Shown piece after piece: positions 25,873 through 41,414 of a stretch of DNA of 64,000 nucleotides. The notes beneath the pieces are model-generated. The model had not been told where the DNA came from. It worked only from the letters and a program-made list of their open reading frames with translations, and did not search any database. The stretch comes from a virus: the IMG/VR virus record IMGVR_UViG_3300032245_001520, positions 1 to 64,000 of that record. One strand, given 5' to 3'. Numbering within the stretch: the stretch's first letter is position 1; each line of letters begins with the position of its first letter. Position numbers and translations under genes: made by a program.

Positions 25873-28800
25873 TCAATCCAGCAACCCTTCATCGATGACG
25901 TCGATACTACCGTCGCTTCTCTGCGTCACGCCATCTCCCGCCAGCAAAACATACTGAGTGACAAGACCTTCAGATTGTGTGGCAGCGCAAGCGATAAACT
26001 CGGCAGCAGTGACCACCCGGATGTTGCAAGTCGTCAGTGCCTGCGGCGGTTCTGAGAACTGAATGCCCAGGGTGCCCGTCGCAAGATTGGGAACGACTCG
26101 GTAGGAGATGGAGTTGGGATCCAGAGTGCTCGCCTTGGACGGAGTTTGCAGGACACCACCCAGGTTGACGAACAGGTTCTCCGCATTGACGATGGTCGCG
26201 TCAACTGGTTTGCCACCGATGATCAGATCAAAAGTGACCTTAACCCCATTGAACTGCGGGGAGATATCGTCTAGATTCTGCACGTAGACCGAAGTTGCCT
26301 CGCGAGACCGGTACCCTGCGCCAGACAAGATGGCGCGATAGTCGTACGAGGTGCCCAGGGCAGGCGACTCGCCCAGATAGCTGAGTTGGGTGACCTTCGT
26401 GGTCGACACGAACACCTGCTGCACCTGGTACGAGGCATCTCCCTGAAAGTCACCAGTGGGAATCTGCCCGACACCACTGAGGAATGCGAACAGATCCTTG
26501 CTCTTGAGAGTGATCTCGGTCGGAGATAATGTGAACAGCGAAGTTGTGCCATCGATCTCTGGGATAGCGGACAGAGTCACAACCTCGAGTGTCGTCTCGT
26601 TGTCCTCCGATGTGACAACACGGATGTCGCAGATGGCGCCGATCGCAGGTGGCGATGTGAATAGGATCTTCGGTTGGACCACACCGTCTTGAATCACCAG
26701 ACTGTAGGCAGTGCCAGGTTTCTGTACGACACCACCGAGGTTGACGAACAGGTTTGACCCGTTCTCGAGCAACTGGGTGGAGGGCAGGTTGTACCCTTCC
26801 CGTTTCAGGTCAAACTCAACTTTCGTCCCATCAAACTCGCTCGAGATGTTGTCGGTGGAGTACACCAGAATAGGTGCAGGGTACTGAGTCGGTGATGGGG
26901 GCAGGTAGACCAGTCGGTTGGCAGGGTTGTTGCTGGGATTCTCGTTCTGATAGAAGTTGCCAGTGACTGCCTCGCGAACGGGACCGTACAGAACGGTGGA
27001 TCCGTAGTCGTTGACACCGGCGACGACCAGGCGACCACCCCAGACGGAGGTGGCGTAGTAGTCGAACAGCAACTTGCGCGAAATGTCGTTGGTCTGATAC
27101 TTGAGGAGACCACGCGAGGGATTGTAGTATCCGCAGTACTGCCAGGTGTGAGTGTTGGACAGAACCTGAGATGGCTGGTTGAACTCAATCGGCCAGGGCG
27201 ATGTGAAGGCGGCATAGCCATTGATGGGAGACAGTCGGATGCTCTCGATAGGCAGGACTCGATCGCCCCAGTACTGGGGTTGCAGGTAGGTTTTCATCAG
27301 TTCGGCACTGTATCCCATCACCTCGAAAAATCGGTACATCGTCGACTTCGTGATGGACCAGAACGGGTCGTACACGGTCGGTTCCGGTGTGTTCGTCTCC
27401 TCGCACAGTGTGACAGTCGTGCCCTTTGGCCACTGCTCGGGTGTGAACGTTCCGTTGTCGGAGTTGAAGACGCCAGGGTTGTACTCGGGATAGTAGTTGC
27501 GGATGGCACGCACGTTGCTCGACACAACATTGACGATGCGCACATACTCGGTGGTCGCCACATCCGGGTGAGAGAGTTGGGCGACGATCAGACCCTCTTT
27601 GGGGTCGCCGATGCCTAGGACGGAGAGGACGTCGAGTTCGATGATCGCAGGGCGACCGCGAGTCGCACCGCTATCGCTGGGGAGAGACATCGCCTGATAC
27701 GTCTGAACCGTGCGCGAGACAGTCAGAGTGGCAGTGGAGACGGGAGTCAGACGTCGCTTGTAGATGATGCCGAGACCGGATGACCCATCGTCACCGTCGT
27801 ACACATTCTGAGCACCGAATTGGGTGATCGGAGGTGTGGCACCTCGCATGAATGTCAGATTCGGTTGCTGGGCGAGGTATCCGGTGTAAGTCGGGTAAAG
27901 AGTGGGTTGGACGTATCCGAGGTAGGAGTCGGTAATTGGTTCTTGTCGCAAGGTGACACTCGTTGTGACAAATGGCGAGTCGACCTTGTTCGGAGAGACC
28001 TTGGTGGGTCCGTTGAGAGTAGTGAAGTTGGTTTGGTAGTAGAGTGTGTTCCAGATGTTGTTCTCTGCCGCGAAGTAGTTGCGATTCTGATAGGTGAAGT
28101 ACGAACCGGCAGCGGAGTTGAATGCAGTCTGCCCATTGGTGTTGAACCCCAACTCGGTAAAGTTGGCAGACTGGACCCAGGGGGCACTGCCGTCGACGAG
28201 TGTGGCGTAGACGTTGTACGTCGTGCTCTGCGTGGCGTCGGCGACCTTGTTGTTGAAGTTGGCTGAGAGACCGGAGACTGTCGGTGAAGACCCGACCACC
28301 GAGAAAGTCTGAGAGACGCCACCGTTGATGCCAGGGTCAAACTGGTACCCTCGCTTGAGGGTGTTTGACAGGTTCTGACCTGTCTGGTTGAGTCGGAGGA
28401 CGGAACCGTACTGGGGTGCGAGCGATGTCGGGTTGGTCGAGGACACGAAGAACCCGTAGGACCGTTGCTCCTGCGACCGAGGGTCGATAAACCGACGAAT
28501 GTACGGAGTGTCAAAACCGGAGGTGTCGTTGGAGTACTGGTCGCCCATCGGAATGCGCGAGTCAGACAGTCGCAGACGGAGAACACCACCACCGTTGTAG
28601 GTCGGGTCGGAGAGGATGGCTGTGGGAGAACCGTCGGTGACGAAGAATCCCTGGTACGAGCAGTCAGGGTCGGCGATGTACAGAGCGCTGCCAGGGGCGA
28701 GAGAGAAGGGCAGGATGCTCTCGGGATTGAAGGGGTGGCTGAGCACCACGAGTTGAACCGAGGAGTCGGTAGGGTCTTGAACCACCCGGACCACCTTGCT

Positions 28801-30825
28801 TCCCAAGTTGAGGATGCGTTTCTGCTCGTTCGACTTGACCTCTTCTTCGAGGAGGACAAGAGGGCGAGAGATGCCTGAGAGGAGGAACCCTCGGTCGTTA
28901 GCATTGGCGCCACCCAGTGTGCCGATGCCCGCGAAACCCTCGGACTGAATAGCGACAGACCCGAAGTCGGTCTTGCTATTGGTGAGCGACAGAATGGCAC
29001 CGTTCATAGCCCAGGCACCGACAGCAGCGCCGATGGTGTAACATTCGCCTGCCTCGGTGAATGCGTTGGCACCACGCACTCGGAACCCGAAGTGGCGGAA
29101 GTCGTTGTCCAGATCGGTGATGCCAGTGCTCAGTCGCCCGTCGCCGACTCGCAGAGTCTCGTAGTAGTACCGGATGTTCGAGATGGAAGCACGGTTGAGT
29201 GTCTCGAGTTGGTACTCAGTCGGAACCTCGTACGGATAGGCATACTCGGTGACCAAGGACTGACCCAGTGTTGAGAGAGACACCCAGTCTTGATCGGAGG
29301 TGGCGTACACCTCGTAGGCAGCAGGGTCGAGTTGTAGGGAGAAGGCAGTGCAGGTCTCGGTGATGGCGGATTTGAATCCGGAGACCAGATCGCCGTCGTT
29401 GTCTTCGAGGCACATGCCATAGCTCGATCGAAGACTCAGACGTGTCGCACGAGGCGAGGCGAATGCTGTCGAGTTGCTGCTGATGTTGTCAGGGAAAACA
29501 CCGGTGGTCGGCGCCACGATCGTGGTCTCGCCAGGGAAGGACACTCGGGTGTCGACGCGACCCGCAAACTCGGGGAATGCTTTCTGCACTTTGGTGTAGA
29601 AGTCGCGCAGTTCCTGCAGAGTGGCACTGGTGTGACCACGCAGTCGATGGTGAGAGTAGTTGTGCAGTTCGTACGATGTGCCGTCTGCCGGTTTGAAATA
29701 CGGAAAAATGTTGCTAACTGCCAGTTTGGTGCCACTCAGATCGTTGATGCCGGGGGGCAACTGACTGAAGAGCACGTAGGTGGCTCCGGTGCTGTACGCA
29801 GACGAGGTGGGCGACAGACGGAAGGTGAACGAGTCGACGGGACTGGCGTAGTATGCGCCAGGGGGGAATGCGTCGGACCGAATGGTCGTGCTAGGGTACG
29901 ACACCGATGTGAAGTCGTCCTCGCTCAAACCGTGGGGGCGACGAGACCGGAAGACTGCCTCGCCGTTGGCGTTTGCTGTGATGGAGACAACGTCGCGGGT
30001 CTCGACTTTGTCACAGTAGACGAAGTTGTCGAAGAAGCACCCGCCCGACCGTTTGAAGATCGATGTGATGGGTTGATTGCTGATCGCGGTGCTAGTGGTG
30101 GTCAGTGCGTAGGGGACCGGGTACGCAGGGTGGGTGTATTTCGGAACGTACGTCGGATGAATCGAACACTCTCTGGGATTGTCGCTGATGATCGAGATGC
30201 CAGCAGGGATAACGAGAGCACCGTCTGGAGTGTTGAACTCTTGCAACTGGTACTGTTGGACGTTTCCGTCTACCGATTGAGAAAAATCAACTGAGAAATC
30301 TTGGACGGTGTTACCGGGACCATTGACCACACAATTGCGGCCACCAAGGAGAACAACCTGATAGGTGGCGTCAAACCATCCCTTCAGGAAGTTCTCAATG
30401 TATAATTTCGTGAGTTGGATGACAGCGCGATTGACTGTGACAAACGGGATAGACTGTCCATCATTCTGAAGCGAGTCGGTAGCGTTTGGGTACTCAGGTC
30501 CGACGAAGACGGTGTATCCGCCGCTACCACCAAAGAAGGGCGACGAGACTGCCTCCCACGTGTTCCTATCAGATCCAATACTAAGCGACTTGGTGTTGAC
30601 GTCGTACCAGAGTTCGCCTTTTGCAGGGAGGGAGGTTGGTTCCGAAGGCGAATACGCAGTCGGGCCAATCTTGACGATGCTGCTGTCAGAGACTTGGAAA
30701 AATGCTCCAGGATCGACGCTATTTGTATTTAGCCCCAACTCTCCTGGCACCAAATTGGCCGGGGTGGGGCGTTTTCCGAGGATCGAGGATCGCTTGAAGA
30801 CGATTTTTACAGCGTTGCTGGACAT
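25873..30825 (-). CDS. Very large virion structural protein
   Basis: A 1650-residue protein beginning with the KRS/GEL adaptor (FKRSSILGKRPTPANLVPGE; ELWYDVNTKSLSI). The segment YTVFVGPEYPNATDSLQNDG ... PFVTVNRAVIQLTKLYI is typical of the start of a right-handed beta-helix (pectate-lyase-like). From memory, related proteins are large virion structural proteins of cyanomyoviruses. The last 350 residues contain three cap-like modules in a row (SEFDGTKVEFDLKREG...LFVNLGGVVQKPG; the block near LTLSPTEITLKSKDLFAFLS; PQFNGVKVTFDLIIGG...LFVNLGGVLQTPS). It probably forms a prominent baseplate or fibre component. It is a single-gene unit. Confidence 0.88.
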   Translation of the reverse strand: MSSNAVKIVFKRSSILGKRPTPANLVPGELGLNTNSVDPGAFFQVSDSSIVKIGPTAYSPSEPTSLPAKGELWYDVNTKSLSIGSDRNTWEAVSSPFFGGSGGYTVFVGPEYPNATDSLQNDGQSIPFVTVNRAVIQLTKLYIENFLKGWFDATYQVVLLGGRNCVVNGPGNTVQDFSVDFSQSVDGNVQQYQLQEFNTPDGALVIPAGISIISDNPRECSIHPTYVPKYTHPAYPVPYALTTTSTAISNQPITSIFKRSGGCFFDNFVYCDKVETRDVVSITANANGEAVFRSRRPHGLSEDDFTSVSYPSTTIRSDAFPPGAYYASPVDSFTFRLSPTSSAYSTGATYVLFSQLPPGINDLSGTKLAVSNIFPYFKPADGTSYELHNYSHHRLRGHTSATLQELRDFYTKVQKAFPEFAGRVDTRVSFPGETTIVAPTTGVFPDNISSNSTAFASPRATRLSLRSSYGMCLEDNDGDLVSGFKSAITETCTAFSLQLDPAAYEVYATSDQDWVSLSTLGQSLVTEYAYPYEVPTEYQLETLNRASISNIRYYYETLRVGDGRLSTGITDLDNDFRHFGFRVRGANAFTEAGECYTIGAAVGAWAMNGAILSLTNSKTDFGSVAIQSEGFAGIGTLGGANANDRGFLLSGISRPLVLLEEEVKSNEQKRILNLGSKVVRVVQDPTDSSVQLVVLSHPFNPESILPFSLAPGSALYIADPDCSYQGFFVTDGSPTAILSDPTYNGGGVLRLRLSDSRIPMGDQYSNDTSGFDTPYIRRFIDPRSQEQRSYGFFVSSTNPTSLAPQYGSVLRLNQTGQNLSNTLKRGYQFDPGINGGVSQTFSVVGSSPTVSGLSANFNNKVADATQSTTYNVYATLVDGSAPWVQSANFTELGFNTNGQTAFNSAAGSYFTYQNRNYFAAENNIWNTLYYQTNFTTLNGPTKVSPNKVDSPFVTTSVTLRQEPITDSYLGYVQPTLYPTYTGYLAQQPNLTFMRGATPPITQFGAQNVYDGDDGSSGLGIIYKRRLTPVSTATLTVSRTVQTYQAMSLPSDSGATRGRPAIIELDVLSVLGIGDPKEGLIVAQLSHPDVATTEYVRIVNVVSSNVRAIRNYYPEYNPGVFNSDNGTFTPEQWPKGTTVTLCEETNTPEPTVYDPFWSITKSTMYRFFEVMGYSAELMKTYLQPQYWGDRVLPIESIRLSPINGYAAFTSPWPIEFNQPSQVLSNTHTWQYCGYYNPSRGLLKYQTNDISRKLLFDYYATSVWGGRLVVAGVNDYGSTVLYGPVREAVTGNFYQNENPSNNPANRLVYLPPSPTQYPAPILVYSTDNISSEFDGTKVEFDLKREGYNLPSTQLLENGSNLFVNLGGVVQKPGTAYSLVIQDGVVQPKILFTSPPAIGAICDIRVVTSEDNETTLEVVTLSAIPEIDGTTSLFTLSPTEITLKSKDLFAFLSGVGQIPTGDFQGDASYQVQQVFVSTTKVTQLSYLGESPALGTSYDYRAILSGAGYRSREATSVYVQNLDDISPQFNGVKVTFDLIIGGKPVDATIVNAENLFVNLGGVLQTPSKASTLDPNSISYRVVPNLATGTLGIQFSEPPQALTTCNIRVVTAAEFIACAATQSEGLVTQYVLLAGDGVTQRSDGSIDVIDEGLLD

Positions 30826-31050: not shown

Positions 31051-32664
31051 TCAAATTCCTGCATAGAGAGTGTTGATGAGGTCCATAGCTTGCTCATCAG
31101 TTATTTTAGCGAACGCGCCTTTCGTGTAAACCTCTGGTTTTTTTCTAATACCACGGGTCATGATCTCGCCGATCTCGTCGTCAGAAAGACCCATCTCATT
31201 CCGCATTTTCGAAATCACGTCGCGTTTGTTCTCATTGACCTTATAAAGGGCAGGTGCAACCGTTTCAAGGTCAGCGTAAGTTTTCTGACCTCTCATCACT
31301 TGATTCAGTTCCCCCAACCCTGGAACATCCCACCGTTTCACCTGCCAGTCCCCGTCACCCACGCTAGTGGAACCGCGAGGGGGTTGAAACGCACCGAGTG
31401 CCTCGGCGAGTGCAGCACGAGGGTTGTCGAGTGCGAGACCCAGATCGACAATTTTGCCCTTGCCGTCTTTGCCAACCATCACGTTGTCAATGTGCATATC
31501 GTTGTGTTGAATGCCAGCACGATGCACATCGGCACGCGTCTCCCAGTAGATAGTTGAGTGTTGTTTACCAGTTGCGTGGTGTGAACCAGGGGTCTTATCG
31601 CCGAGGGGTTTCCCGTCGAGTGCCTCCATTGCGATGCGACCGGTGCGGACGTCGACGAAACTCTGCCTGTTATTGCCAGGACCATTGATCTCAGCACCGA
31701 TGAGTTTCGGTCCGACACCTACCTCGCCCAGTTTCTTGATGATCGCTGCCTCCTCAGAGGAAACATCGCCTCGCTTGTGTGCGACGCCACCCTTGGTCTG
31801 AATTACGGTGCCGTACGCACCCTGACCGAGTTTCTTCGACCCCGACCCCGTGCTCTCTTTCCAGTCGACGGTCTCGCCGATTTTGCGCACTTGGTCGATG
31901 CGTGGGAACGCTGAGTCAAAACTGCTTGCGCTGCTTCTTGCCAGTCGCGTTGCCATCGGAGCGGCGGATGCGTCGGCACCGGGTCCGTTGATGGCACGGT
32001 TGAGTCTCTCGTCGCCGTCGCCTTGCTGGTTTCTCAGGTCTCTGGCGGCGAACAGCAGTGCGGATAGATCACCTTTGAAATCCTCTCGAGTCATCCCCCC
32101 GTGCCCCATCGCCTCGTGCAACATGTCAAGGTGCTGTTGCTTGCGATTGGCAGCGTCAAGTTCCTGGCGCACCGGTCCGACGTTACCGCCGGGCGACCGA
32201 GGCATTTGGCGTGGTGCCTGCCAATCCACCTTCAGGTCGGACATTTTGTCCGGTGCGTTTGCCTCCTCTTCGAGTCTCTTTTGCAGACCAGGAGTCAGAA
32301 ACGGTTTGCGCGCGATACCTATAGGTTTCTTTTCCTCCTTCACAGCGTCAGTCATAGGTTTCCCCGCAGACCCCTTCGGTATCAACCCTGCTGCTTCCAA
32401 CCGTCGCTTAAACTCCCTGCCCTTCTCGCCGGGGACCACGTTGCCCCCTCGCTCCGCTGCGATCTGACGGCGGATGTCTTTCGCTTTCTTCTCTGCTTCC
32501 CTGCCTCCAATGTGCTTGGCGACGGCAACCAGTTCTTTCGCCCTGACCTCCTCGCTCGCCTTTTCCAGGGCGCCACGGAGTGTCGTCGGCATGCTGACAC
32601 GGCAGTATCGCGATTTCTCGATGCAAGTTCCACCGCAGGATTTTCCACTACCGCATTTTTTCAT
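31051..32664 (-). CDS. Kinase-fold protein with Cys-rich N-terminal tag
   Basis: A 537-residue protein. The N-terminus holds Cys4-x5-Cys10-x3-Cys14-x6-Cys21 around GKSCGGTCIEKSRYC. The same Cys spacing and GKSCG occur in the HNH protein at 36871. A charged linker follows. The C-terminal half shows a eukaryotic-like kinase layout: Gly loop LGQGAYGTV (279-287), candidate Lys297, catalytic loop QHNDMHIDN (386-394) and a DLG metal motif (407-409). The HND-N and DLG variants are found in diverged kinases and aminoglycoside/Kdo-type kinases, so substrate is open. The start is ATG 32662-32664, eight bases after the preceding gene. The location among head/packaging genes suggests a virion-packaged protein. 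Confidence 0.8.
   Translation of the reverse strand: MKKCGSGKSCGGTCIEKSRYCRVSMPTTLRGALEKASEEVRAKELVAVAKHIGGREAEKKAKDIRRQIAAERGGNVVPGEKGREFKRRLEAAGLIPKGSAGKPMTDAVKEEKKPIGIARKPFLTPGLQKRLEEEANAPDKMSDLKVDWQAPRQMPRSPGGNVGPVRQELDAANRKQQHLDMLHEAMGHGGMTREDFKGDLSALLFAARDLRNQQGDGDERLNRAINGPGADASAAPMATRLARSSASSFDSAFPRIDQVRKIGETVDWKESTGSGSKKLGQGAYGTVIQTKGGVAHKRGDVSSEEAAIIKKLGEVGVGPKLIGAEINGPGNNRQSFVDVRTGRIAMEALDGKPLGDKTPGSHHATGKQHSTIYWETRADVHRAGIQHNDMHIDNVMVGKDGKGKIVDLGLALDNPRAALAEALGAFQPPRGSTSVGDGDWQVKRWDVPGLGELNQVMRGQKTYADLETVAPALYKVNENKRDVISKMRNEMGLSDDEIGEIMTRGIRKKPEVYTKGAFAKITDEQAMDLINTLYAGI
31103..31130 (-). promoter_or_regulatory. Candidate host-type promoter inside the kinase gene
   Basis: TTTACA (31125-31130), 16-base spacer, TAAAAT (31103-31108), directed at the 55-residue gene starting at 31049. 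It lies within coding sequence, so chance occurrence is harder to exclude. Confidence 0.4.
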
Positions 32665-32671
32665 GGGTGTC

Positions 32672-33169
32672 TCAACGATTTGCGCGACGCTCGGCGAAGT
32701 CACGAATGCGCGACTCCAGACTGGCGATCTTCTCGTCAAGGTTGATGCTCTCCGAGTATCCCATCATGCCATCGTATTGATCAGTCTGGGCAGCACCCAG
32801 GTCATTGACCGCAGCAGCAGCGTCGATCCTGCTCTTCTCCTTCGTCAGTGCCGCCAGTTCTTTCAGTTGAGTCTGCAATGCCTGGAAATTGCCTTGGAGG
32901 CGAGACACGCGAATCTTTTCCTGCACTCGCTCAATTTGATCTTCGACAGCATATCCTTTCTGCTCCAGCGCAGACTGGCGCGACTGGCGTGAGGTAGGGT
33001 ACAGTTCGTCGTATGCGTTTTCGACAACACTTGTATTTTGTGGCTCCATAACCGTGCCTCGGAAGTAGTCCGTGGGGTCATGGGTGAAATTCAGGGTTTC
33101 GTGCCCCCTTTCAGAATAGATGAGGTATGCGCTCTTCAGCGCCTCCTCAGAGATGGCATCTTTCCGCAT
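32672..33169 (-). CDS. Coiled-coil protein, possible scaffold
   Basis: A 165-residue protein. I place the start at ATG 33167-33169, 25 bases after a GGGTAAAACC element; the frame extends 14 codons further, but there the codons would read through the element itself. Residues 60-120 form a strong coiled coil (EDQIERVQEKIRVSRLQGNF; LKELAALTKEKSRID), and a second helix with RIRDFAERRA ends the protein. First gene of the unit leading to the kinase-like protein. It could be a scaffold, terminase-related or internal head protein; no family recognised. Confidence 0.72.
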   Translation of the reverse strand: MRKDAISEEALKSAYLIYSERGHETLNFTHDPTDYFRGTVMEPQNTSVVENAYDELYPTSRQSRQSALEQKGYAVEDQIERVQEKIRVSRLQGNFQALQTQLKELAALTKEKSRIDAAAAVNDLGAAQTDQYDGMMGYSESINLDEKIASLESRIRDFAERRANR

Positions 33170-33194
33170 AGCCGGGAACAGAGGTTCGTTGACA

Positions 33195-33204
33195 GGTTTT
33201 ACCC
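33195..33204 (-). promoter_or_regulatory. GGGTAAAACC element with adjacent repeat copy C
   Basis: Exact copy, 25 bases before ATG 33169. Repeat copy C begins directly upstream (33206), so the two form one composite regulatory block. Confidence 0.75.
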
Positions 33205-33205
33205 C

Positions 33206-33240
33206 TGCCATGTGTTCGATCGATCATGCTTGTTCGAGCA
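33206..33240 (-). repeat. Composite repeat, copy C (short form)
   Basis: On the minus strand it contains GATCGATCGAACACATGGCA (33206-33225), identical over 20 bases to copies A and B, preceded by a degenerate second unit (GCTCGAACAAGCATG). It lies at the boundary between the 246-residue gene and the 165-residue gene. Confidence 0.85.
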
Positions 33241-33964
33241 CATCCTGTCCGATCTTGTTGATGATCTTCTGACGACCGCTACCCGTTTTCTCTTTCACCA
33301 GTTCTTTGCTTAGTTGCTTCACACCTTTCTGGGGAGCAGGTTGAACCATCTTCGGCGAAGGTTTCTTAGAGATTTTCGGCATCTCCTTGTTTTCGCCGTA
33401 ATCCTCCTCGGCACCCTGCACAAAGTCGCCGACCGCATTCATCCCCTCGTAGGCAGAGGAGATTTTGTAGGCAACCCACGGCGGCATGTTCTCGCTGCCA
33501 TCGAGCATGCCGAGAACACTGTCAACGTTCTCTCGCAGAGACCGCAGTTGACTCATCAGCATGCGCCCATTATCCTCCTCTGAGTGCAGAGGATCCTCTT
33601 CCTCGCCCTCCTCAGCATAGTTTGGTGCCGCACGCATTGCCAGTGTGCCATTCTTGTTGCTCGCTTTCGCCAGCACGTCGGATCGGGGCATTCTTTGGGG
33701 CACACCCTCGCTCATCTGCGGATTCTTCAGGTCGCCCTTGCCGGGTTCTTTCGGTAGGTAGTTCGGAGTCATCTCAGCAGTGGCAACGTCACCCTCGCTG
33801 TGCTTGGAGTCCACAGGCGCACAGTTGGGTACCATGCGACCGCCTTTCTTTTTCATCCCAAACGCTTCGTAGTTCTTCCAACAAGCGTCCTTAAGAGACC
33901 TCGCAGTCCCCTCGCTGTACCCCATGGACAGCAGGCGATCCCAGTCGTAGTTCAAGATTTCCAT
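33224..33964 (-). CDS. Putative head-associated protein
   Basis: A 246-residue protein. The N-terminal RLLSMGYSEGTARSLKDACW and FGMKKKGGRMVPNCAP recall a motif I have seen in conserved phage structural or internal proteins. Residues 120-180 are acidic and helical, and contain ENMPPWVAYKISSAYEGMN, a segment typical of small virion or prohead-associated proteins. The C-terminus is Lys/Pro-rich and basic (KKPSPKMVQPAPQKG). It overlaps the 92-residue gene by 13 bases. It ends inside repeat copy C, which supplies the last five codons. Exact role unknown. Confidence 0.75.
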   Translation of the reverse strand: MEILNYDWDRLLSMGYSEGTARSLKDACWKNYEAFGMKKKGGRMVPNCAPVDSKHSEGDVATAEMTPNYLPKEPGKGDLKNPQMSEGVPQRMPRSDVLAKASNKNGTLAMRAAPNYAEEGEEEDPLHSEEDNGRMLMSQLRSLRENVDSVLGMLDGSENMPPWVAYKISSAYEGMNAVGDFVQGAEEDYGENKEMPKISKKPSPKMVQPAPQKGVKQLSKELVKEKTGSGRQKIINKIGQDVLEQA

Positions 33965-34230
33965 GGTGTCTCCGCGTGGCGCCAGATTGTAAACTCTTTG
34001 TCGAGGTCGTCGACTTTTTCGGACAGGCGAACGTGGTCCTCTCTGAGTGTGTATTTCAGGGGGAGGTCTGCACGCATGTCGTTGATGGACTTTTCCATCC
34101 GCTCCATGTGAATGATAATGGACTCAAAACGACCGTCTATCCTCCTGCCATTTTTGTCCAGGAAGTACCCGATACCGGTCACAGTCGTGAAGACAGATCC
34201 GATGATTCCGATAATTACATCAATGCCCAT
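33952..34230 (-). CDS. Single-span membrane protein with coiled coil
   Basis: A 92-residue protein with one N-terminal hydrophobic helix (IDVIIGIIGSVFTTVTGIGY, residues 3-22), then a charged helix with heptads (IIIHMERMEKSIND; LREDHVRLSEKVDDLDKEF). Small phage proteins of this architecture include holin accessory and spannin-like proteins, and tail-fibre or head membrane anchors. No lysin is adjacent, so a lysis role is only a possibility. It is tightly packed between two structural-type genes in the 34971 unit. Confidence 0.75.
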   Translation of the reverse strand: MGIDVIIGIIGSVFTTVTGIGYFLDKNGRRIDGRFESIIIHMERMEKSINDMRADLPLKYTLREDHVRLSEKVDDLDKEFTIWRHAETPWKS

Positions 34231-34232
34231 CT

Positions 34233-34940
34233 CTAACTCGGCAGTCCGGACTCACCTGCTGCCATGCGTTGTTTGACTGAGTCGGGAAGACCGGACTCCA
34301 GACCGTGTGCCTTAGCGATCTTGATGATGTTCGCCATCACTTGACGGGGGTTCTTGGCACGACCAACTGAGGACCATGCCGCAGAGACGTCTTCGGCGGA
34401 GGAGATCGGGAAGGACATTTCTGGACCAGCAAAGGCACCCTTGGCAGCGCCACTCTGCAGTTCCTTGCGCTTTTCAGTGGACCACTCGCGGTACTCCTGA
34501 TCCTTGCGCTTCTTGTCACGACAGGACGCACAGGAGCAGTCACATCCGCAGTCCTCCTTAAAAGCGGGCAGGGGGGTGCTAAGCACCTCGGCGTCGAGTG
34601 ACTCTTCCTCGGAGAAGTTGTACTGGACCCGCTTCATCTCCTTGAATGACTCCATCCGCGCCTTCTTGCGCGAGAAGATTTCTTTCATGGCAGAAGCACC
34701 GTCGCAGTGATCGCAATACTCGCGATTGACTGTTGACTCGTTCTTTTGACGACGTGCTGCGTTTGCCTGAAGGATGCTCTCATTGTGATGGGAGAGATTC
34801 CCGTGGATGTCGGGCGACCACTTTTTTCCTTCGCGGTTCCTCTCCATTAGGTCAGGGATGCCGATCGAGTTACTCGCATTTAACATCCCCCCTGCACCAG
34901 GGAGTGTCACCCCGCTGAAATCAAGACTACTTCCGTACAT
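34233..34940 (-). CDS. Cys-cluster protein with DUF6582-like C-terminus
   Basis: A 235-residue protein. The start at ATG 34938-34940 is set by the GGGTAAAACC element 21 bases upstream. It has a CDHCDG pair near residue 82 and a dense CGCDCSCASC cluster near 130, which could bind zinc. The C-terminal 65 residues (AFAGPEMSFPISSAEDVSAA ... IIKIAKAHGLESGLP) match the FAGPxxSFPI-x-AxxVxxA pattern of a small conserved phage domain (DUF6582 as I recall). That domain often sits at the end of prohead protease or structural proteins. Likely head-associated. Confidence 0.78.
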   Translation of the reverse strand: MYGSSLDFSGVTLPGAGGMLNASNSIGIPDLMERNREGKKWSPDIHGNLSHHNESILQANAARRQKNESTVNREYCDHCDGASAMKEIFSRKKARMESFKEMKRVQYNFSEEESLDAEVLSTPLPAFKEDCGCDCSCASCRDKKRKDQEYREWSTEKRKELQSGAAKGAFAGPEMSFPISSAEDVSAAWSSVGRAKNPRQVMANIIKIAKAHGLESGLPDSVKQRMAAGESGLPS

Positions 34941-34961
34941 ACGGGTCAATCGACGTTGAGG

Positions 34962-34971
34962 GGTTTTACCC
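34962..34971 (-). promoter_or_regulatory. GGGTAAAACC element for the Cys-cluster protein unit
   Basis: Exact copy directly abutting the stop of the acidic-tail gene (34972) and 21 bases before ATG 34940. Confidence 0.73.
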
Positions 34972-35340
34972 TCAGTCTTCTTCGTCGGTGTCGTACTCGA
35001 TCTCGTCGTCACCGATGGAACCGAGCAACTCATCGACGAGTGCGTCGAGTTCCTCGTCGGAGATCACGTCCGAGTCCAACTCATCGTCCTCAACGTTCTC
35101 AGAGTCGTAGTGGTCCTGGGGATTGAACGGTTGGTTCACGGGTTCTGGGTATCTGCCCGAGGGATAGCGCCATAAGCCCGTATGCGCTATCCAGGGGGAA
35201 GTGTTGGAGATTTCTCCGGTTGGAAGTCCTGTCTCCTTATGAACATCCAGGTCTTCGGGGGTTTGCATTTGGGCAGCGTAAGCGGAGCGGAACGCTTCAA
35301 GTGCCTCCGCCGAGTAGTCGCCACCGATTCGATTGGTCAT
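34972..35340 (-). CDS. Acidic-tailed structural-type protein
   Basis: A 122-residue protein, start ATG 35338-35340 (22 bases after a GGGTAAAAAC variant). The N-terminus is helical (AEALEAFRSAYAAQMQTPED), the middle has a Trp-rich strand (WIAHTGLWRYPSGRYPEPVN), and the last 45 residues are intensely acidic (DDELDSDVISDEELDALVDE). Acidic tails are common in scaffolds, DNA mimics and internal head proteins. I do not recognise the family. Confidence 0.72.
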   Translation of the reverse strand: MTNRIGGDYSAEALEAFRSAYAAQMQTPEDLDVHKETGLPTGEISNTSPWIAHTGLWRYPSGRYPEPVNQPFNPQDHYDSENVEDDELDSDVISDEELDALVDELLGSIGDDEIEYDTDEED

Positions 35341-35362
35341 GTTTGATCGAGTTGTTCTGAAT

Positions 35363-35372
35363 GTTTTTACCC
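35363..35372 (-). promoter_or_regulatory. GGGTAAAAAC variant element overlapping a stop codon
   Basis: One-base variant, 22 bases before ATG 35340. As at 17551 and 55496, GGG TAA within it is the final Gly codon and stop of the upstream gene, here a homing endonuclease. Confidence 0.65.
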
Positions 35373-36017
35373 CCTCCACTTGCGTCCGTTTTTCCACTCT
35401 GCCCCCGGGCTGTCCACCTGGTTTCTAATTTCCCCCTCTTTATTTACCCAGTACTTCCTGCCTTTCAGGGTGTCGCTTATTTTACGTCGCTTTTCATCGT
35501 TATACTTTTTTCCTTTCAACGATTCACTAATTTTTCTTCGGGTTTCCTCACTACGTTTTCGACCGGTGTGCAGCTTGATTAACTTTTGCCGGGTTTCCTC
35601 ACTAAGCCTTCGTCCCACCAGGGATGAACTAATTTTTTGTCGAGTAGCTTCGCTTACCTTTTTCCCAAACCTGTGATTTTTCTCTCCTGTGAATGCTTCT
35701 TTAAGGGCTATACGGGTTTCTTCGCTAAGTGTTTTTCCCGTGGTATCGAACTTTGTGCTGGTTTGTTTCGCCCTATTGGCAAATTGAGGATTTCGTCCCA
35801 CATCGTAAAATTCGTGCAAAGTAATTTCATCTGCAATCGCCTCTTCTCTTGTCTTGTAATCGCTTCTCAAAATAATTTTTTGTGCGGGTTTGAAGTTCTT
35901 GTCCGAGTAAGACCCGAAGTATGCCGTGTCTTCTTCAGGTAAGCAGTCACATGACCGGCTGCCTATGTATCCGCGACCCCAATTCTCGAAAGAGTAGTAA
36001 ACGTAGTGGTTTCTCAT
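35367..36017 (-). CDS. GIY-YIG homing endonuclease with NUMOD repeats
   Basis: A 216-residue protein. The N-terminus has YVYYSFENWGRGYIGSRSC, a GIY-YIG core, with TAYFGSYSDKNFKPAQKIIL after it and a conserved Glu (ITLHEF region). The C-terminal half contains three to four NUMOD-type repeats (SEATRQKISSSLVGRRLSEE; SEETRRKISESLKGKK), helix-turn DNA-recognition modules that follow GIY-YIG domains. It would cut an unoccupied allele and copy itself in. Lower GC than neighbours, its own host-type promoter and placement next to a late element mark it as a mobile insertion in the head-gene unit. It ends in Gly-stop within the element. Confidence 0.92.
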   Translation of the reverse strand: MRNHYVYYSFENWGRGYIGSRSCDCLPEEDTAYFGSYSDKNFKPAQKIILRSDYKTREEAIADEITLHEFYDVGRNPQFANRAKQTSTKFDTTGKTLSEETRIALKEAFTGEKNHRFGKKVSEATRQKISSSLVGRRLSEETRQKLIKLHTGRKRSEETRRKISESLKGKKYNDEKRRKISDTLKGRKYWVNKEGEIRNQVDSPGAEWKNGRKWRG

Positions 36018-36023
36018 GCGATC

Positions 36024-36512
36024 TCACCTTTTTTCTATTTTACCGTCGGTGCGCTGAAGTAAACGCGAGTTCCCGGTCAGTCTGGCCTCGTGTTTTTTGC
36101 CCTCCACCTTCACCTCCGCTTTCATTTTTGCCTCACTTAGCATATCTTTCTTCCTCTCCTCCAGAGTCGGTTCTGACTCTTTCTCAGGTTCGAGTGCGGT
36201 GGCATGCTCCTTCAACTTCGCCTTCACCTCGTTTTTCACAATGCCCTCCTCAAACATTTTCTTTCCCTTTTCTTCGGGTGTTTGTTCCACGTTTTCCGGC
36301 ACGACCTTTCCACTCTCGTCGATTTTATGCCCCTTGGGTGCCTCTTTCTTGATTGCTTCGGGGGTGCTGAGGGAGGACAAACGATCTAGAATCTTGGCGT
36401 GGTCCTCGCCTAGCTTAAATCGGCAGACTGCGGATGCCTTAACAGACATAGGACCGCAGGGCATCTTGTGAAGTGTCAGCAAGTCCGAGAGTGAGGGTTT
36501 TTCTTTTGTCAT
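36024..36512 (-). CDS. Lys/Glu-rich helical protein
   Basis: A 162-residue protein from ATG 36510-36512, overlapping the stop of the preceding gene. The N-terminus contains LHKMPCGPMSVKASAVCRF, and the remainder is low-complexity, highly charged and probably a long helix (EEKGKKMFEEGIVKNEVKAK; KDMLSEAKMKAEVKVEGKKH). The end of the gene holds the promoter candidate for the homing endonuclease. Function unknown; possibly an internal or scaffold-type head protein. Confidence 0.68.
   Translation of the reverse strand: MTKEKPSLSDLLTLHKMPCGPMSVKASAVCRFKLGEDHAKILDRLSSLSTPEAIKKEAPKGHKIDESGKVVPENVEQTPEEKGKKMFEEGIVKNEVKAKLKEHATALEPEKESEPTLEERKKDMLSEAKMKAEVKVEGKKHEARLTGNSRLLQRTDGKIEKR
36037..36063 (-). 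promoter_or_regulatory. Candidate host-type promoter for the homing endonuclease
   Basis: TTTACT (36058-36063), 15-base spacer, TAAAAT (36037-36042), 20 bases before ATG 36017. It is inside the 3' end of the preceding gene. AAGGTGAG supplies a ribosome binding site. Confidence 0.5.
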
Positions 36513-36513
36513 G

Positions 36514-36846
36514 TCATGCTCCAGTACGTTGTGGCATCCAACCATCGTTATGCGGTGCGTAGTGAACACCTTTCTTCTTCTCTTTCCGGGGGTTCGAGTC
36601 CTTTCGGTTCTCCTCTCGCATCGATGCGATCATCGTGTCTCGCATGTTTCTGAGGTGGTCGCGTGGCACTGTGCAATGATCTGAGTCACGGTAAGATCTG
36701 TAATGTCGACAAACCTCAGACGGGTCGTCACTGCGGGCCATCATCTCCCATATTCCCAATGCCTGCGAGTCATTGAGGATGCCCGGTTTGAGACCGGACT
36801 GAATCTCGTCCCTTGGAGGGCGATTGAATCGGGTGTCTTTGCGCAT
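36514..36846 (-). CDS. Hypothetical basic protein, 110 residues
   Basis: A basic, Arg- and Asp-rich protein (MRKDTRFNRPPRDEIQSGL; RHYRSYRDSDHCTVPRDHL) with a His/Cys-containing middle and a Lys-rich C-terminal region. It is coupled to the next gene by overlapping start and stop. It lies between the HNH-tag protein and the Lys/Glu-rich protein in the PhoH unit. No family recognised; the charge suggests nucleic-acid or capsid-interior contact. Confidence 0.65.
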   Translation of the reverse strand: MRKDTRFNRPPRDEIQSGLKPGILNDSQALGIWEMMARSDDPSEVCRHYRSYRDSDHCTVPRDHLRNMRDTMIASMREENRKDSNPRKEKKKGVHYAPHNDGWMPQRTGA

Positions 36847-36870
36847 TTGGATCGGGTGATGATGTGGGGT

Positions 36871-38568
36871 CTAGAGGGATAAAATATCTACTAGCACATT
36901 TTCACGTATGTCTTTTATCATACTCGAGATAGCCGCTCTGGATCCGGTTTCCGCGCTCATCTCCAAATCCCTAATTTTTGTACCTTTCCACTCTTTCTCG
37001 TTTAGGTTCAAAAGTTCTCGCTGTGCTCTTCCAAGCAATGCTCCAAGTTTTTTCAATCCTTCCGTGTCTCCCTTAGCCTCCAACTCAGCAACTTTGTCTG
37101 CAATTTTCTTTCCAGCAGGGTTACCTCCTGCCGAAGTTGGCCCCCCGTACCAGTACCACGGCTGGGCGGCGCGGGCCATAGTTCCTTCTTTGGCTGACTG
37201 CATACCGATAGCAACAGTACGAGCAGACCCTTCAGTCCAAAAGGAGATTATTTTACCTAGTAGTTTTGATTTCTTGTCAGACGGAAGCCCTGACTCCTCT
37301 ATCATCTTAATGGCATCAGTTGGTTTGACAGATTTGTCAAGAAGTTTATTTTCCAGATCTGCTTTTGTTCCTCCGCTAGCTTCCCTCAGGGAGTGAAGTT
37401 CTTTCCCCCGAGGGGTCAGCTGCCCTCGATTGTCGAAAGTTACCTGTTCTCGCTTTTTCGAAGTTTGCTTTCCTGTGGGACTCACGTAGAAGTAGCCTTC
37501 AGGGTTGCTTACGTCAAAGTAGTCGGGACTTCCTTCGGACTTACCCCTGTTGAGTCTGGACTTGGTTAGACCGTAATTGTACCCTTGCTCGGAAAACCTC
37601 CCTCCATGGGAAGCAGGTATGATGTGTTCCAGGTCAGCCTCCAGTAAAGGCAGTTTTTCACCCGTGTATATGTCTCTCCACCCCGACTCCAATCCTATTC
37701 GGACTATCAACTCAGCCCTCCCCCTTTGTTGTTCAACGCTGGCCTTTTGAACTGGACCGAAAGAAACGGGAATCACGTCAGATTTAGACCCTGGAGGGAA
37801 GTGACCACCTTCTGCAACTGACCCCGCTTTCCCCAGGAACGTTCTTGCTTCAGCGGGCATGAAAGCCAGAGCCAGTTTAACCTCCGCATCAGATACTTTA
37901 TTCACTCGGTACCCTTCGGCGACTTCTCTCAGAGAATCTCTCATTTGCTCTGCGGTCTTGATTTTGCCACTCAGCATGCCCTCGTAAGCCCTGGTCGCCG
38001 CTTTTATTCTACCCTGTAGTTTGAAGATGCCCTCCACTTCTTTTTCTGAAACAGCTGCTCCGGGGTTTTTTACCCCAAACGCCGTTTCTAGCACTCCGTC
38101 GACAGTTCTGTTAAAGACTTTCTCTCTCTCTTTGGGGTCCGGGTAAGCCCTTTCCAGCTCAGAGTAAGCTTCTGTTAGTTCTTTAGCTCTTTTTCTGATG
38201 TCCTGCTTTTGAGACTCACCCTTTAACTCTGTGTCCCACTCGGACTTTCCAGATTTATCGCTCCCCCCAATTCTCAACTCCCTACTTTGATCTTTAATGT
38301 CCTCCAAACCTGAATACTTCTTGAATACTTTTTCTGCGTCTTCAGGTGTGATGCTACCCTGTTTCACTCGCTCTCGCAAGTGGTCTCTGACTTTGGACAG
38401 TGCTTTTTGCACTTCCGGGTCCGGGAAAATTACAAGACAGTCGTCATCGCGAAAAACACAAGCTGCCCCGCAAGACTTACCTTTTTTGCATACGTCCTTG
38501 CTCTCGGCGAAGGAAACCGCCAACCGATTGGACAAGGCGTCGAGAAGTAGTTGGCGGCGGCAGGTCAT
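36871..38568 (-). CDS. HNH nuclease-like protein with Cys-rich N-terminal tag
   Basis: A 565-residue protein. The tag Cys27-x5-Cys33-x3-Cys37-x6-Cys44 (CKKGKSCGAACVFRDDDC) has exactly the Cys spacing of the kinase-like protein at 31051. After about 240 mostly helical residues comes an HNH domain: IYTGEKLPLLEAD, DLEHIIPAS (His315), Asn331 and Asn340 followed by RGKS. The last 190 residues are helical and Lys-rich. The ATG overlaps the TGA of phoH (ATGA). The protein is too large and too differently organised for a homing endonuclease or packaging HNH protein. It may be a virion-packaged nuclease; this is inferred from the shared tag and location. Confidence 0.85.
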   Translation of the reverse strand: MTCRRQLLLDALSNRLAVSFAESKDVCKKGKSCGAACVFRDDDCLVIFPDPEVQKALSKVRDHLRERVKQGSITPEDAEKVFKKYSGLEDIKDQSRELRIGGSDKSGKSEWDTELKGESQKQDIRKRAKELTEAYSELERAYPDPKEREKVFNRTVDGVLETAFGVKNPGAAVSEKEVEGIFKLQGRIKAATRAYEGMLSGKIKTAEQMRDSLREVAEGYRVNKVSDAEVKLALAFMPAEARTFLGKAGSVAEGGHFPPGSKSDVIPVSFGPVQKASVEQQRGRAELIVRIGLESGWRDIYTGEKLPLLEADLEHIIPASHGGRFSEQGYNYGLTKSRLNRGKSEGSPDYFDVSNPEGYFYVSPTGKQTSKKREQVTFDNRGQLTPRGKELHSLREASGGTKADLENKLLDKSVKPTDAIKMIEESGLPSDKKSKLLGKIISFWTEGSARTVAIGMQSAKEGTMARAAQPWYWYGGPTSAGGNPAGKKIADKVAELEAKGDTEGLKKLGALLGRAQRELLNLNEKEWKGTKIRDLEMSAETGSRAAISSMIKDIRENVLVDILSL

Positions 38569-39383
38569 CAGTCTTCGTATGCTTCTAGGATGTCGGCGAT
38601 AATGCCGTTGCGGACAATGTCAGATCGGTCAAACTGTATGCGACCTACCCCCTTGATGTTGGCCAATCGGTGGTAGGAGTCCAGAAGTCCGCTGTTACGC
38701 GAGAAAACCTCCAGGTCAACTTGGCGAGTGTCCCCTGTGATAACCACTTTGGCATCCTCACCTACGCGACTGATGACAGTCTTGACATTTTCCGGCATTG
38801 AGTTTTGTGCCTCGTCGAAAATGATGAGACAGTTAGAGAATGATCTTCCCCGCAAGTCTTCCAACATCATCGGTTCGACAATCTTCTTGGACACCAAGTA
38901 CTCGGAGGCCCCGTAGGACCTTGTCATGACCGCCAAGTTGTCAAACACAGGACCAACCAAGGGAGCCATTTTTTCCTCCATGGTCCCGGGAAGAGCGCCT
39001 CTACCCCTCTGATGAGCACACCCTACATCACTTCTAACATAGTAAACTTTGTCAAGATTACCGCTAGCTATTTCACTCAAGCCCCACCAAAGGGCCACTA
39101 GAGTTTTACCAACCCCTGAAGGGCCAATTGCGATGGTCACCGTATTTTTATTCAAGGAAGTCCAAAGATCTTCCTGATGGCCGGTTTTAGGGAGGAACGG
39201 GAGAACGTCCATGCCACGAGAATAGGACTTCTCGAGCGACTGTGTGGCTTCGGCACGACGCTTTGTGCGCTTTGTCTTCGAACTTAACATGGGAGTGATT
39301 AGGCAGACGGTGGGTAACTGAAACTCTTTGCTGCTTAGAAGGATTACATCCGACTCACCCCCTTGACACGTGTTCTGAAACAT
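38568..39383 (-). CDS. phoH: PhoH-like ATPase
   Basis: A 271-residue P-loop ATPase of the PhoH family: Walker A GPSGVGKT (87-94), VYYVRSDVGCAHQRGRGALP (a Gly/Pro loop typical of the family), Walker B LIIFDEAQN (186-194), and sensor VVITGDTRQVDL. PhoH is common in cyanophages; its RNA- or phosphate-related role is unresolved. The ATG at 39383 lies 23 bases after a GGGTAAAACC element, supporting this start over an internal ATG at codon 32. It heads a unit containing the HNH-tag protein and the homing endonuclease, so it is expressed with late functions here. Confidence 0.95.
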   Translation of the reverse strand: MFQNTCQGGESDVILLSSKEFQLPTVCLITPMLSSKTKRTKRRAEATQSLEKSYSRGMDVLPFLPKTGHQEDLWTSLNKNTVTIAIGPSGVGKTLVALWWGLSEIASGNLDKVYYVRSDVGCAHQRGRGALPGTMEEKMAPLVGPVFDNLAVMTRSYGASEYLVSKKIVEPMMLEDLRGRSFSNCLIIFDEAQNSMPENVKTVISRVGEDAKVVITGDTRQVDLEVFSRNSGLLDSYHRLANIKGVGRIQFDRSDIVRNGIIADILEAYED

Positions 39384-39656: not shown

Positions 39657-41414
39657 TCAGTCGTCGTAACCGATGCGACCCCGCCCGCCACCCCGACGCA
39701 GTCCGAATGATTGAGATCGGTCGTCATCTGACGCAGAGTCATAGTCAACGCTATTGTATCGCGCTTCCCCGAAAGGTAAACTTCTGCTCAGTCCTCGAGA
39801 TGTTTGGGTGAACAGAGTGCTGTCCTTAAGACCCTCGCGTCGCAAATCTCCCAGGTAACGTTTATTTTGAATAATCGCCTCCTGCAGACCCCTGTCGACG
39901 ACGTCCATCGACATTGCATAGTATGTGAGTGCCCATGTGAATGAGTCCACGTCATCGTCATGTTTGACATACGGGAAGGTGGTTAGGTTTTTGACGAACT
40001 TTTGAGTCCAGTAATCGTCAAGGAAGAATACACGCCCGCTCTCAAGATACGGAGTGACCGCCTGCAGACGGGTAGACTTCGACTTGAGGGGTTTCATCTC
40101 TACAACGGGGATCTTCCCCTCCTTCTTCAGCACCTGGATCAGCGATTGACCGCTTGCTGCCTTCTCTATGCACAGCAGTTTTGCCTTGTAGAATGAATAT
40201 GCTTGTTTTACCGCTTCAATCAAATCGGGGAAACCCCACCTCCCGGTGATGATCTCGCGTATGTAAATCTTGGTCGGGTCCTTCAGACAGATCGACGCCA
40301 CACAGAGTGCCGACTCGTCTGACATCTCCCTCTCCTGGAAGGCAGTATCGCAGGCGATCCAAGTGACATCGTACGATGGCGGTTCCTCGTCCTCACCAAT
40401 GACCCGCACCCAGGAGTTTTTAACAATCTGACCCTCAGACGCTTTGGGGACTCCCTGATATAAGGCGGCAAATTTAAATGAACCCATGATTTTCCGCTGC
40501 GACTCCAGCATCGGTACAGAGAATGTCGGGTTGCTCGGCCAGTGCGACTCGCCTACCTTCCGCTCCAGGGGATCATTGTGGGGTTCCTCGCAGAGTCCGG
40601 CAATGTTGATCCACCGCCACCGGAAGTCGTCTTTGTCGGGGTGTCCGACCTCGTCCGGATCGTAGACACCGTCGCCCTGAATCAGCACACCGTGAAGATC
40701 CTTCTCGTGGAATCTCGTGGCGATGATCAACTGGCAGTAGTGATTTGTTCTTCGAGTCGATGCTTGCTCACTCCACCAACTTTCCAAATTGTCCAGTGCC
40801 TGTTTCGAGTCAGACGATTTCAGCGGATCGTCGATGACCATCGCACCGACACCGGGCGAGTCCATATCCGTCGTCCCTGCTGTGAATCCAGTCAGCACCC
40901 CACCCACCGACGTCGCAAGGATGTACCCGCCGCCATTCATGTCGTACTTAGAGTCGGGGGAGAATCCCAACCACTCGGGGAATATTTTCTTGAACGTCGG
41001 TGTCTTCAGCATCCCCACCACCTCGCGGTGGAACTTGAATGACAGCGACGCACCATACGATGCGATAACATGCTGTGTCTTCTGATCGCGTCCGAGCAAC
41101 CACGCCAGGAACATCGTCGCCAGCATCGACTTGCCAGATCGCGGAGGGCAGGAGACGATCAGTCGCCGATTCCTCCGGGTGGCCAGATCTTCGAATGCCG
41201 ACGCAATGATCTCATGGAAATCGGATACTTGAAGGTCGCCTGCCTTCATCAGGTCGCAGAATGCCAGAAAGCAGTCTCGTGCTGCCTTGTGCTTGTACTC
41301 TTGAATGATGCTCCGAGGCGCCTCCAGCAGAGTCAACTCTCGAAGTCCCTTCTGATACTGGCGCCACGAGGAATGCTGCTCCAGCTGGCTGACCCGTGTT
41401 ATTGGCGGTCTCAT
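39657..41414 (-). CDS. terL: Terminase large subunit
   Basis: A 585-residue DNA-packaging motor. ATPase: Walker A CPPRSGKS (89-96), adenine/coupling region VIASYGASLSFKF, Walker B AMVIDDP (191-197), ATRFHEKDL (coupling motif). RuvC-like nuclease: first acidic residue in WIACDTAF (Asp356), middle motif LLCIEKAASGQSL, and C-terminal HDDDVDSFTWAL. The pattern resembles Terminase_6-type TerL of siphoviruses and unclassified large phages rather than T4 gp17. Its ATG overlaps the stop of the 93-residue gene by four bases, typical of a small/large terminase pair. The enzyme docks on the portal, which is not in this window. Confidence 0.95.
   Translation of the reverse strand: MRPPITRVSQLEQHSSWRQYQKGLRELTLLEAPRSIIQEYKHKAARDCFLAFCDLMKAGDLQVSDFHEIIASAFEDLATRRNRRLIVSCPPRSGKSMLATMFLAWLLGRDQKTQHVIASYGASLSFKFHREVVGMLKTPTFKKIFPEWLGFSPDSKYDMNGGGYILATSVGGVLTGFTAGTTDMDSPGVGAMVIDDPLKSSDSKQALDNLESWWSEQASTRRTNHYCQLIIATRFHEKDLHGVLIQGDGVYDPDEVGHPDKDDFRWRWINIAGLCEEPHNDPLERKVGESHWPSNPTFSVPMLESQRKIMGSFKFAALYQGVPKASEGQIVKNSWVRVIGEDEEPPSYDVTWIACDTAFQEREMSDESALCVASICLKDPTKIYIREIITGRWGFPDLIEAVKQAYSFYKAKLLCIEKAASGQSLIQVLKKEGKIPVVEMKPLKSKSTRLQAVTPYLESGRVFFLDDYWTQKFVKNLTTFPYVKHDDDVDSFTWALTYYAMSMDVVDRGLQEAIIQNKRYLGDLRREGLKDSTLFTQTSRGLSRSLPFGEARYNSVDYDSASDDDRSQSFGLRRGGGRGRIGYDD
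39753..39780 (-). promoter_or_regulatory. Weak candidate host-type promoter inside terL
   Basis: TTTACC (39775-39780), 16-base spacer, TACAAT (39753-39758), about 145 bases before the 63-residue gene. It fits the same consensus but is coding and distant, so confidence is low. Confidence 0.3.

Follow-up and report, generated by a model that had tools for sequence, protein, structure and literature searches.

A four-cysteine N-terminal tag common to a kinase-fold protein and an HNH protein of a virus genome: a probable virion-targeting signal

Only for a few systems (T4 and P1 being those found in print) is it understood how phages select the non-structural proteins that they load and inject. 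According to passages of one paper (PMC3012670), the internal proteins of T-even phages have only a conserved capsid-targeting sequence (CTS) in common, and the CTS encapsidates foreign proteins. For phage P1, passages of another paper (PMC9024508) state that the N-terminal 30 residues of DarB suffice to direct a reporter into the capsid and that there is no consensus among the N-termini of the Dar proteins. Here, a stretch of 64,000 nt (the window) of the record IMGVR_UViG_3300032245_001520 was analysed, the entire virus record comprising 82,344 bp. The window encodes a kinase-fold protein and an HNH protein which carry the same four-cysteine tag, C-x5-C-x3-C-x6-C (GKSCG), designated T1; the rest of a tagged protein is referred to as its body. 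We consider it probable that T1 is a virion-targeting tag and that its cargo is recruited at head assembly and ejected together with the DNA into a cyanobacterial host. The two genes and their tags are as follows.

31051..32664, (-) strand: T1-tagged kinase-fold protein, 537 aa counted from the ATG at 32664 (the open reading frame (ORF) as listed reaches a TTG at 32739)
32602..32655, (-) strand: T1 tag of the kinase, C-x5-C-x3-C-x6-C, CGSGKSCGGTCIEKSRYC (pattern match)
36871..38568, (-) strand: T1-tagged HNH protein, 565 aa
38437..38490, (-) strand: T1 tag of the HNH protein, C-x5-C-x3-C-x6-C, CKKGKSCGAACVFRDDDC (pattern match)

An earlier, sequence-only reading of this DNA had claimed that both proteins carry Cys-x5-Cys-x3-Cys-x6-Cys around GKSCG near the N-terminus, and this was confirmed, the spacing being identical in both. 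Within the window, the GKSCG-type pattern matched nothing but these two tags, and a slightly shorter pattern found the same two as the only matches in the whole 82,344-bp record. The GKSCG-type pattern gave 0 matches in 100 shuffles of the window, and none is expected by chance. The most likely start of the kinase is the ATG at 32664, closely behind the stop of the upstream gene, which makes the first tag Cys residue 4. The HNH start overlaps the stop of the neighbouring PhoH gene (TGATG), so that the first tag Cys is residue 27.

The same reading held that the kinase-fold and HNH domains are unrelated to each other, and evidence for both was found by profile, residue conservation and Foldseek, with scores mostly under the library cut-offs. 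The window kinase matched Pkinase (E 5.1e-5, under the Pfam cut-off), the phage 'kinase' family phrog_18305 (5.8e-7) and NCBIfam Bud32 (1.6e-6, under the cut-off). Alignment of 24 tagged kinases, including that of the window, showed that G282, K297, E305, H387, D389 and D407 are invariant and N394 is nearly so. The AlphaFold model of the kinase (mean predicted local distance difference test score (pLDDT) 81) contains helices in the C-terminal subdomain, up to residue 533, and matched many PDB protein kinases in Foldseek with E about 1e-6 and a low whole-chain template modelling score. The HNH protein matched HNH_4 (E 0.0087, under the Pfam cut-off); in the motif D-x-EH...N, D299, H315 and N331 were invariant and D312 and E314 nearly invariant among 20 aligned sequences. 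No PDB match was found for its model (pLDDT 76) by Foldseek at E <= 0.001, the most plausible match being the HNH domain of Cas9 (prob 0.51). By prediction, both window enzymes look catalytically intact.

The distribution of T1 was then evaluated. A scan of IMG/VR with the exact pattern returned 86 stretches, in which there were 97 matches; adding the two window copies brings these to 99 exact matches and 88 loci (cited below by L numbers). ORFs of at least 85 aa contained 86 of the 99 matches, and the 13 in shorter ORFs were dropped before clustering. A tag profile was built from 60 distinct tags, in which the Cys residues and GK.CG are fixed by the search pattern. At positions free of the pattern, the residue after the third Cys is I or V in 60/60 profile tags, and K or R stands just before the first Cys in 53/60 and two positions before it in 45/60; S between GK and the second Cys was found in 59/60, where the pattern permits some other residues. 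Phage-type tags outside the exact pattern kept the four Cys with the same spacing in 13 of the 14 printed cases, the profile itself favouring Cys. When the ORFs of the loci retrieved were searched with this profile, 187 reached E <= 1e-3. Of these, 108 in 85 loci, counting the window copies, were classed as strong (score >= 30, length >= 85 aa and > 40 aa following the tag), and 75 remained after 90% dereplication. In 72 of these 75 the tag begins <= 100 residues from the first Met.

The bodies of the 75 dereplicated ORFs were classified as kinase (25), HNH (22), HExxH metalloprotease (6), Zeta (1), ADP-ribosyltransferase (ART)-like (1) and other (20); the kinase and HNH class profiles were made from members of the same set and hence are not independent, and the remaining classes were assigned by motif. 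A first classification by regular expressions, with 33 'other' bodies, was dropped in favour of the profile classes because it under-counted kinases and HNH proteins. Among individual bodies, that of L044 matched Zeta_toxin (7.9e-22), and a second gene of this locus matched PGDYG (1.3e-7). The L049 body matched LPD1 (1.7e-5, just under the cut-off) and ATLF. For L175:5551-7269, weak matches to GNAT and to ADPrib_exo_Tox (0.0024) were found; the latter and, for L042, a phrog_16619 match and inspection by eye are the weak library evidence for the ART-like assignment. A tagged kinase and a tagged HNH protein occur together in L060, as in the window, and L031 combines a tagged HNH protein with a kinase whose tag is degenerate. 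The sequence-only reading had suggested looking for the Cys pattern on other domains, and T1 or a close variant was indeed found on HExxH proteases, HNH nucleases, ART-like domains (weakly) and a Zeta toxin. T1 is a short sequence at or near the N-terminus, common to otherwise unrelated proteins.

Several tagged proteins were also noted at L049, L210 and L247 (IMGVR_UViG_3300041964_000083; 154-kb contig), namely an HExxH protease, a J-domain-like protein (by eye) and alpha/beta-hydrolase-like proteins (weak matches). A tblastn search of the phage collection with a 27-aa tag consensus gave no match and was too insensitive, since phage S-CBWM1 in that collection has five tags. No paper on GKSCG or on an N-terminal motif of virion-associated cyanophage kinases was found in a literature search.

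By sequence comparison, the phage of the window is a relative of the isolate Synechococcus phage S-CBWM1. The window and its flank showed identities to S-CBWM1 of 54% for the terminase large subunit (TerL), 70% for PhoH, 63% for the capsid protein and 62% (138 aa) for the portal protein, and both genomes have the gene order TerL-PhoH-HNH-small genes-kinase-tail gene. Megablast of the region against phages gave no match. The neighbouring genes are listed below.

39657..41414, (-) strand: terminase large subunit, phrog_38 2.7e-83, 54% to S-CBWM1 TerL
38568..39383, (-) strand: PhoH-like ATPase, neighbour upstream of the HNH gene, PF02562 2.5e-49
36514..36846, (-) strand: S-CBWM1 gp107 homologue (37% over 94 aa), a small gene lying between HNH and kinase
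34972..35397, (-) strand: S-CBWM1 gp108 homologue (34% over 116 aa), a small gene lying between HNH and kinase; by eye, of the same family as a gene near tags in 27 loci
25873..30825, (-) strand: large tail/baseplate gene downstream of the kinase, phrog_529 tail fibre 1.7e-34, 38% over 1654 aa to gp116, 'putative baseplate wedge protein', of S-CBWM1

Both tagged genes had been placed in units of head and packaging genes by the sequence-only reading. This holds for the HNH gene, which adjoins PhoH and TerL, and does not hold for the kinase gene, which lies about 4 kb further on and adjoins the tail/baseplate gene.

Five T1 proteins were found in S-CBWM1: gp106 (HNH), gp113 (RIO-like), gp161 (ChoK-like), gp162 (APH-like) and gp174; the tag positions agree between IMGVR_UViG_2974585561_000001 and S-CBWM1. 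The positional counterpart of the window kinase is gp113 (36% over 136 aa), and its best-scoring match is gp162 (32% over 152 aa). The window HNH protein is similar to gp106 in the same position (28% over 568 aa) and to gp174 (29% over 316 aa); gp174 has the tag variant GKSCN and the GenBank label 'virion structural protein'. These phages also have a second recurrent Cys tag, T2 (CxRPDGSxYGTxGxC; YDFTRCVRPDGSAYGTGGKCRKGTE), which is borne by various proteins and has 19 copies in chosen genes of the loci. Its carriers are S-CBWM1 gp39 (NMNAT) and gp165 (L266, L263) as well as proteins of L023, L031, L060, L064, L072, L084 and others.

The virion evidence for S-CBWM1 comes from passages of two citing papers, and the enzymes were tied to genes by GenBank product name. 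The Rio2-, ChoK- and APH-like kinases (PMC10665884) and the NMNAT (PMC9602691) are reported there in virions. By this product-name matching, all four S-CBWM1 enzymes named as virion proteins in these passages carry a tag, the three kinases T1 and the NMNAT T2. A fourth kinase, gp173 (profile homologue, 1.7e-26), has neither T1 nor T2 and is not among the enzymes named in the passages. Absence of the tagged proteins from virions, an outcome that the sequence-only reading said would speak against its proposal, has so far not been seen for the kinases, as tagged S-CBWM1 kinases are reported in virions in the passages of PMC10665884.

A direct connection with the head was found in a 4.6-kb contig (L206), where one reading frame encodes a lambda-family portal (PF05136 1.4e-107), then a GKACG-form tag and then an HExxH protease. 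The C-termini of portal proteins generally face the head interior, and therefore the L206 protease would sit inside the head. Related proteases were found as stand-alone tagged proteins in L188, L175 and L015. In L175, two genes with the tag variant GIACG directly follow a portal gene whose product is 63% identical to the L206 portal; two further short frames separate them from the tagged protease frame. This latter frame (L175:3682-5270, (-) strand) lacks an initiation codon upstream of its tag, and at a run of A it overlaps a preceding frame of 95 aa; this arrangement could represent either a programmed frameshift or a sequence error.

Minor head protein or head morphogenesis PHROGs were matched by 4 of 10 tagged bodies, namely 16619 (ART-like 9.8e-21, Zeta 5.9e-15), 241 (2.2e-6) and 4529 (2.6e-16). 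In a second set, 2 of 7 T1 proteins matched head PHROG 19443 (L175 4.5e-7, L206 1.6e-4). A PhoH family member was located <= 2 genes away in 17/17 tagged ORFs of the HNH regular-expression class (not dereplicated). A prohead-protease-like gene was found at L172:16420-18834, with 44-50% identity in two stretches to the S-CBWM1 'peptidase' gp170.

In 84,980 prokaryote genomes the exact pattern matched 83 stretches, 57 of which read through without a stop, and just two of the 83 (L148, L159) hold an ORF at tag-profile E <= 1e-3, both short. Exact T1 tags are essentially restricted to viruses. The sequence-only reading had named occurrence of the tag mostly in non-phage zinc proteins as evidence that would count against it, and this has not been seen so far, the exact tag being nearly absent from prokaryote genomes. 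Genes read as psbA adjoin tags in six loci, and S-CBWM1 has an annotated PsbA, which fits a cyanobacterial host.

A relaxed pattern, GK[AP]CG..CI, was scanned in the viral collection and in 386 genomes of the phylum of G001. It gave 92 viral stretches, and 33 of 93 matches lay in ORFs of > 200 aa (L206, L175 and L193 among them), a few of which (e.g. L180, L217) look secreted. Most of the remaining relaxed matches are small secreted bacterial-type proteins with a C-terminal motif and further Cys. One of the 386 genomes matched, again with the secreted type; their phylum, which was reached via a Melainabacteria contig, we take to be the cyanobacterial one in GTDB. Secreted-looking small proteins with CCKxCxKGK[AP]CG[ND]SCI...CH..GCAC were observed in L174, L187, L221, L159, L268 and many relaxed-pattern loci, and for two examples of this type no NCBIfam family was found above the cut-off. 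By eye, the window tags are unlike this type: they are N-terminal and have no signal-peptide-like start, C-terminal motif or extra Cys (CC..C / CAC). The explanation that T1 is a mere common bacterial Cys motif was rejected: the relaxed pattern reaches the secreted family, but the layout differs.

The earlier idea that T1 is a sorting tag is supported by the unrelated bodies, the near-restriction to viruses and the virion kinases of S-CBWM1 reported in the cited passages. The direct basis for virion targeting in the present data is the tag itself, the unrelated bodies, the near-restriction to viruses, the synteny with S-CBWM1 and the portal fusion. Under the proposed mechanism, T1 would be a portable four-Cys targeting module of roughly 18-38 residues, its Cys held by a metal or by disulfides; the secreted bacterial relatives would lean towards disulfides. 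During head assembly T1 would bring its cargo inside the virion, and its docking site would probably be the portal or a core component. The cargo would be the kinase-fold enzyme and the HNH nuclease; among relatives it would extend to metalloproteases, ART-like domains and a Zeta toxin. It would enter the cyanobacterial host with the phage DNA and modify host proteins or DNA as infection starts. Packaging caused by the tag, the position inside the head, injection and the targets are all presumed steps of this mechanism.

A number of observations weigh against this mechanism. The link from tag to packaging is one that we infer. No class fits 20 of the 75 tagged bodies, and neither the window kinase nor the window HNH protein matched a head PHROG. 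For the proteases of L175 and L188 and for the protease portion of the L206 fusion, the top-scoring PHROGs have no assigned function. Just 37 of the 85 tag loci, many of them short, yielded PhoH or TerL. The tag region has low confidence in the kinase and HNH models alike. The similar motif in secreted bacterial proteins of unknown function means that the fold has at least one other use. Virion mass spectrometry (MS) may detect carry-over, as noted in a passage of PMC9602691. The deposited starts of gp113 and gp161 omit the tag; the tags are probably translated, judging from an in-frame ATG before the tag in both genes and from conservation. Finally, 12 of 14 phage records with a related kinase and two of four with a related HNH protein belong to phages other than S-CBWM1 and aligned only outside the tag, from which it follows that enzyme and tag are separable.

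In favour of the mechanism, enzymes of this kind are reported in the virion of another cyanophage as well. Passages of PMC10665884 report for the T4-like phage S-CREM2, by MS of virions, the kinase gp14 (21 unique peptides) and the HNH-like 'Cas9' gp12 (28). The homology of S-CREM2 and S-CRM01 proteins was scored in a set of 24 proteins. The kinase profile matched S-CREM2 gp14 (1.4e-38) and the S-CRM01 kinase (5.4e-42), and the HNH profile matched S-CREM2 gp12 (3e-6), for which direct BLAST of the window HNH protein gave just 0.006; gp12 matched no Pfam family. The T1 profile found nothing significant in the kinase-holding stretches of S-CREM2 (20 kb) and S-CRM01 (best E 1.2). In the first 20 kb of S-CREM2, a motif chosen post hoc, F..F[LM].E, is present near the N-terminus of 4 of 6 virion-detected proteins vs 0 of 25 others. 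The virion proteins of S-CREM2 (L264) with this motif are gp6, gp12, gp13 and gp14.

Three other explanations of T1 were considered. The one that survives best, which we nevertheless regard as unlikely, is that T1 is a zinc- or disulfide-bound nucleic-acid- or protein-binding module serving enzymes in the infected cell, the virion kinases being incidental. The basic residues preceding the first Cys would suit such a module, as would four Cys able to hold a metal and the degenerate, Cys-less tag of the L031 kinase; a search of the window proteins against Pfam gave no zinc-finger match on the tag. This explanation has to accommodate one module on bodies with different substrates, the portal-tag-protease fusion and the presence of T1 or T2 on all four S-CBWM1 enzymes named as virion proteins in the cited passages. 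Still less probable is that T1 binds cargo to a tail or baseplate partner instead of the head interior and that the effectors are freed from the tail on contraction: the kinase gene does lie next to the large tail/baseplate gene, or close to it, in both the window and S-CBWM1, but the portal fusion, the portal-adjacent tag genes and some bodies in common with minor head proteins argue for the head. Spread of T1 through ordinary duplication of one tagged gene family, with no sorting role, is very improbable. The frequent neighbourhood of tagged paralogues (L061, L062, L023) would suggest it, but simple duplication does not account for the tag on all of the kinase, HNH, HExxH and Zeta bodies, which differ in fold.

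The loci hold 5 ORFs with a third motif, T3 (C...KKKGGRxVPNC; ACW..Y.A.G.KKKGGR.VPNC.P), including the window's own copy in L087, and one protein (L031:8050-9015) carries both T3 and T2. The window copy is as follows.

33224..33964, (-) strand: T3 Cys-motif protein (...ACWKNYEAFGMKKKGGRMVPNCAPV; core 33821-33844); seven PHROGs of unknown function match around this short stretch

Virion targeting by T1 could be one part of an address code, which we put forward tentatively. At least three short Cys tags (T1, T2 and T3) would each label a set of proteins, unrelated to one another, for packing into the virion. One and the same cargo (kinase, HNH or NMNAT) would pass between phage lineages through exchange of its tag, T4-like relatives would use another N-terminal signal for these enzymes, and the docking site of T1 would be the portal or inner core.

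Other features of the window and of related loci were also noted. One gene lies inside the tag gene cluster:

35367-36017: homing-endonuclease-like gene, phrog_314 9.4e-19

In L172, homing-endonuclease-like genes at 11930-12580, 13735-14403 and 15170-15715 flank the capsid gene and match S-CBWM1 endonucleases. At 45215-53661 of the window there are 7 adjoining ORFs of ~390-420 aa, each with a short match to one or both of the same two S-CBWM1 tail proteins; the N-terminus of one ORF of this series matches a minor tail protein family.

With T1, the discovery of injected effectors would become a search problem: any T1 ORF is a candidate, including hypothetical proteins such as S-CBWM1 gp106. T1 might also be used to load proteins into cyanophages, S-CBWM1 and Synechococcus being a cultured phage-host pair.

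A comparison with known systems indicated likenesses to several of them. Passages of PMC10665884 describe virion-associated kinases of S-CBWM1, S-CREM2, S-CRM01 and S-TIM5, and these passages mention no tag or targeting route; the window kinase was found to be homologous to those of the first three, as compared here. The phage polyvalent proteins, in the passages of PMC5512222, carry effector domains (kinase, zincin, ART and GNAT) presumed to undergo packaging and delivery, and the LPD1 match in L049 just under the cut-off and the weak GNAT and ART matches in L175 are reminiscent of them. They differ in that each window protein has one enzyme domain, and in that a polyvalent kinase group is described there as having no C-terminal subdomain, whereas the window kinase is predicted to have helices in this region of its model. 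Like the MuF polymorphic toxins (PMC5576092), the tagged proteins would join polymorphic toxin domains to a head-associated module; the carrier here is a small Cys tag, and Pfam searches detected no MuF domain either in the window kinase and HNH protein or in the other tagged proteins searched. T1 would resemble the T4 CTS as a short signal common to diverse proteins packed in the head. Our best reading is that T1 would work like the T4 CTS yet be unrelated to it, the T4 signal sequence itself not having been compared. T1 differs from the CTS in being a four-Cys module of 18-38 residues that can sit within a portal fusion, and from the P1 DarB signal in having a strong consensus on many proteins.

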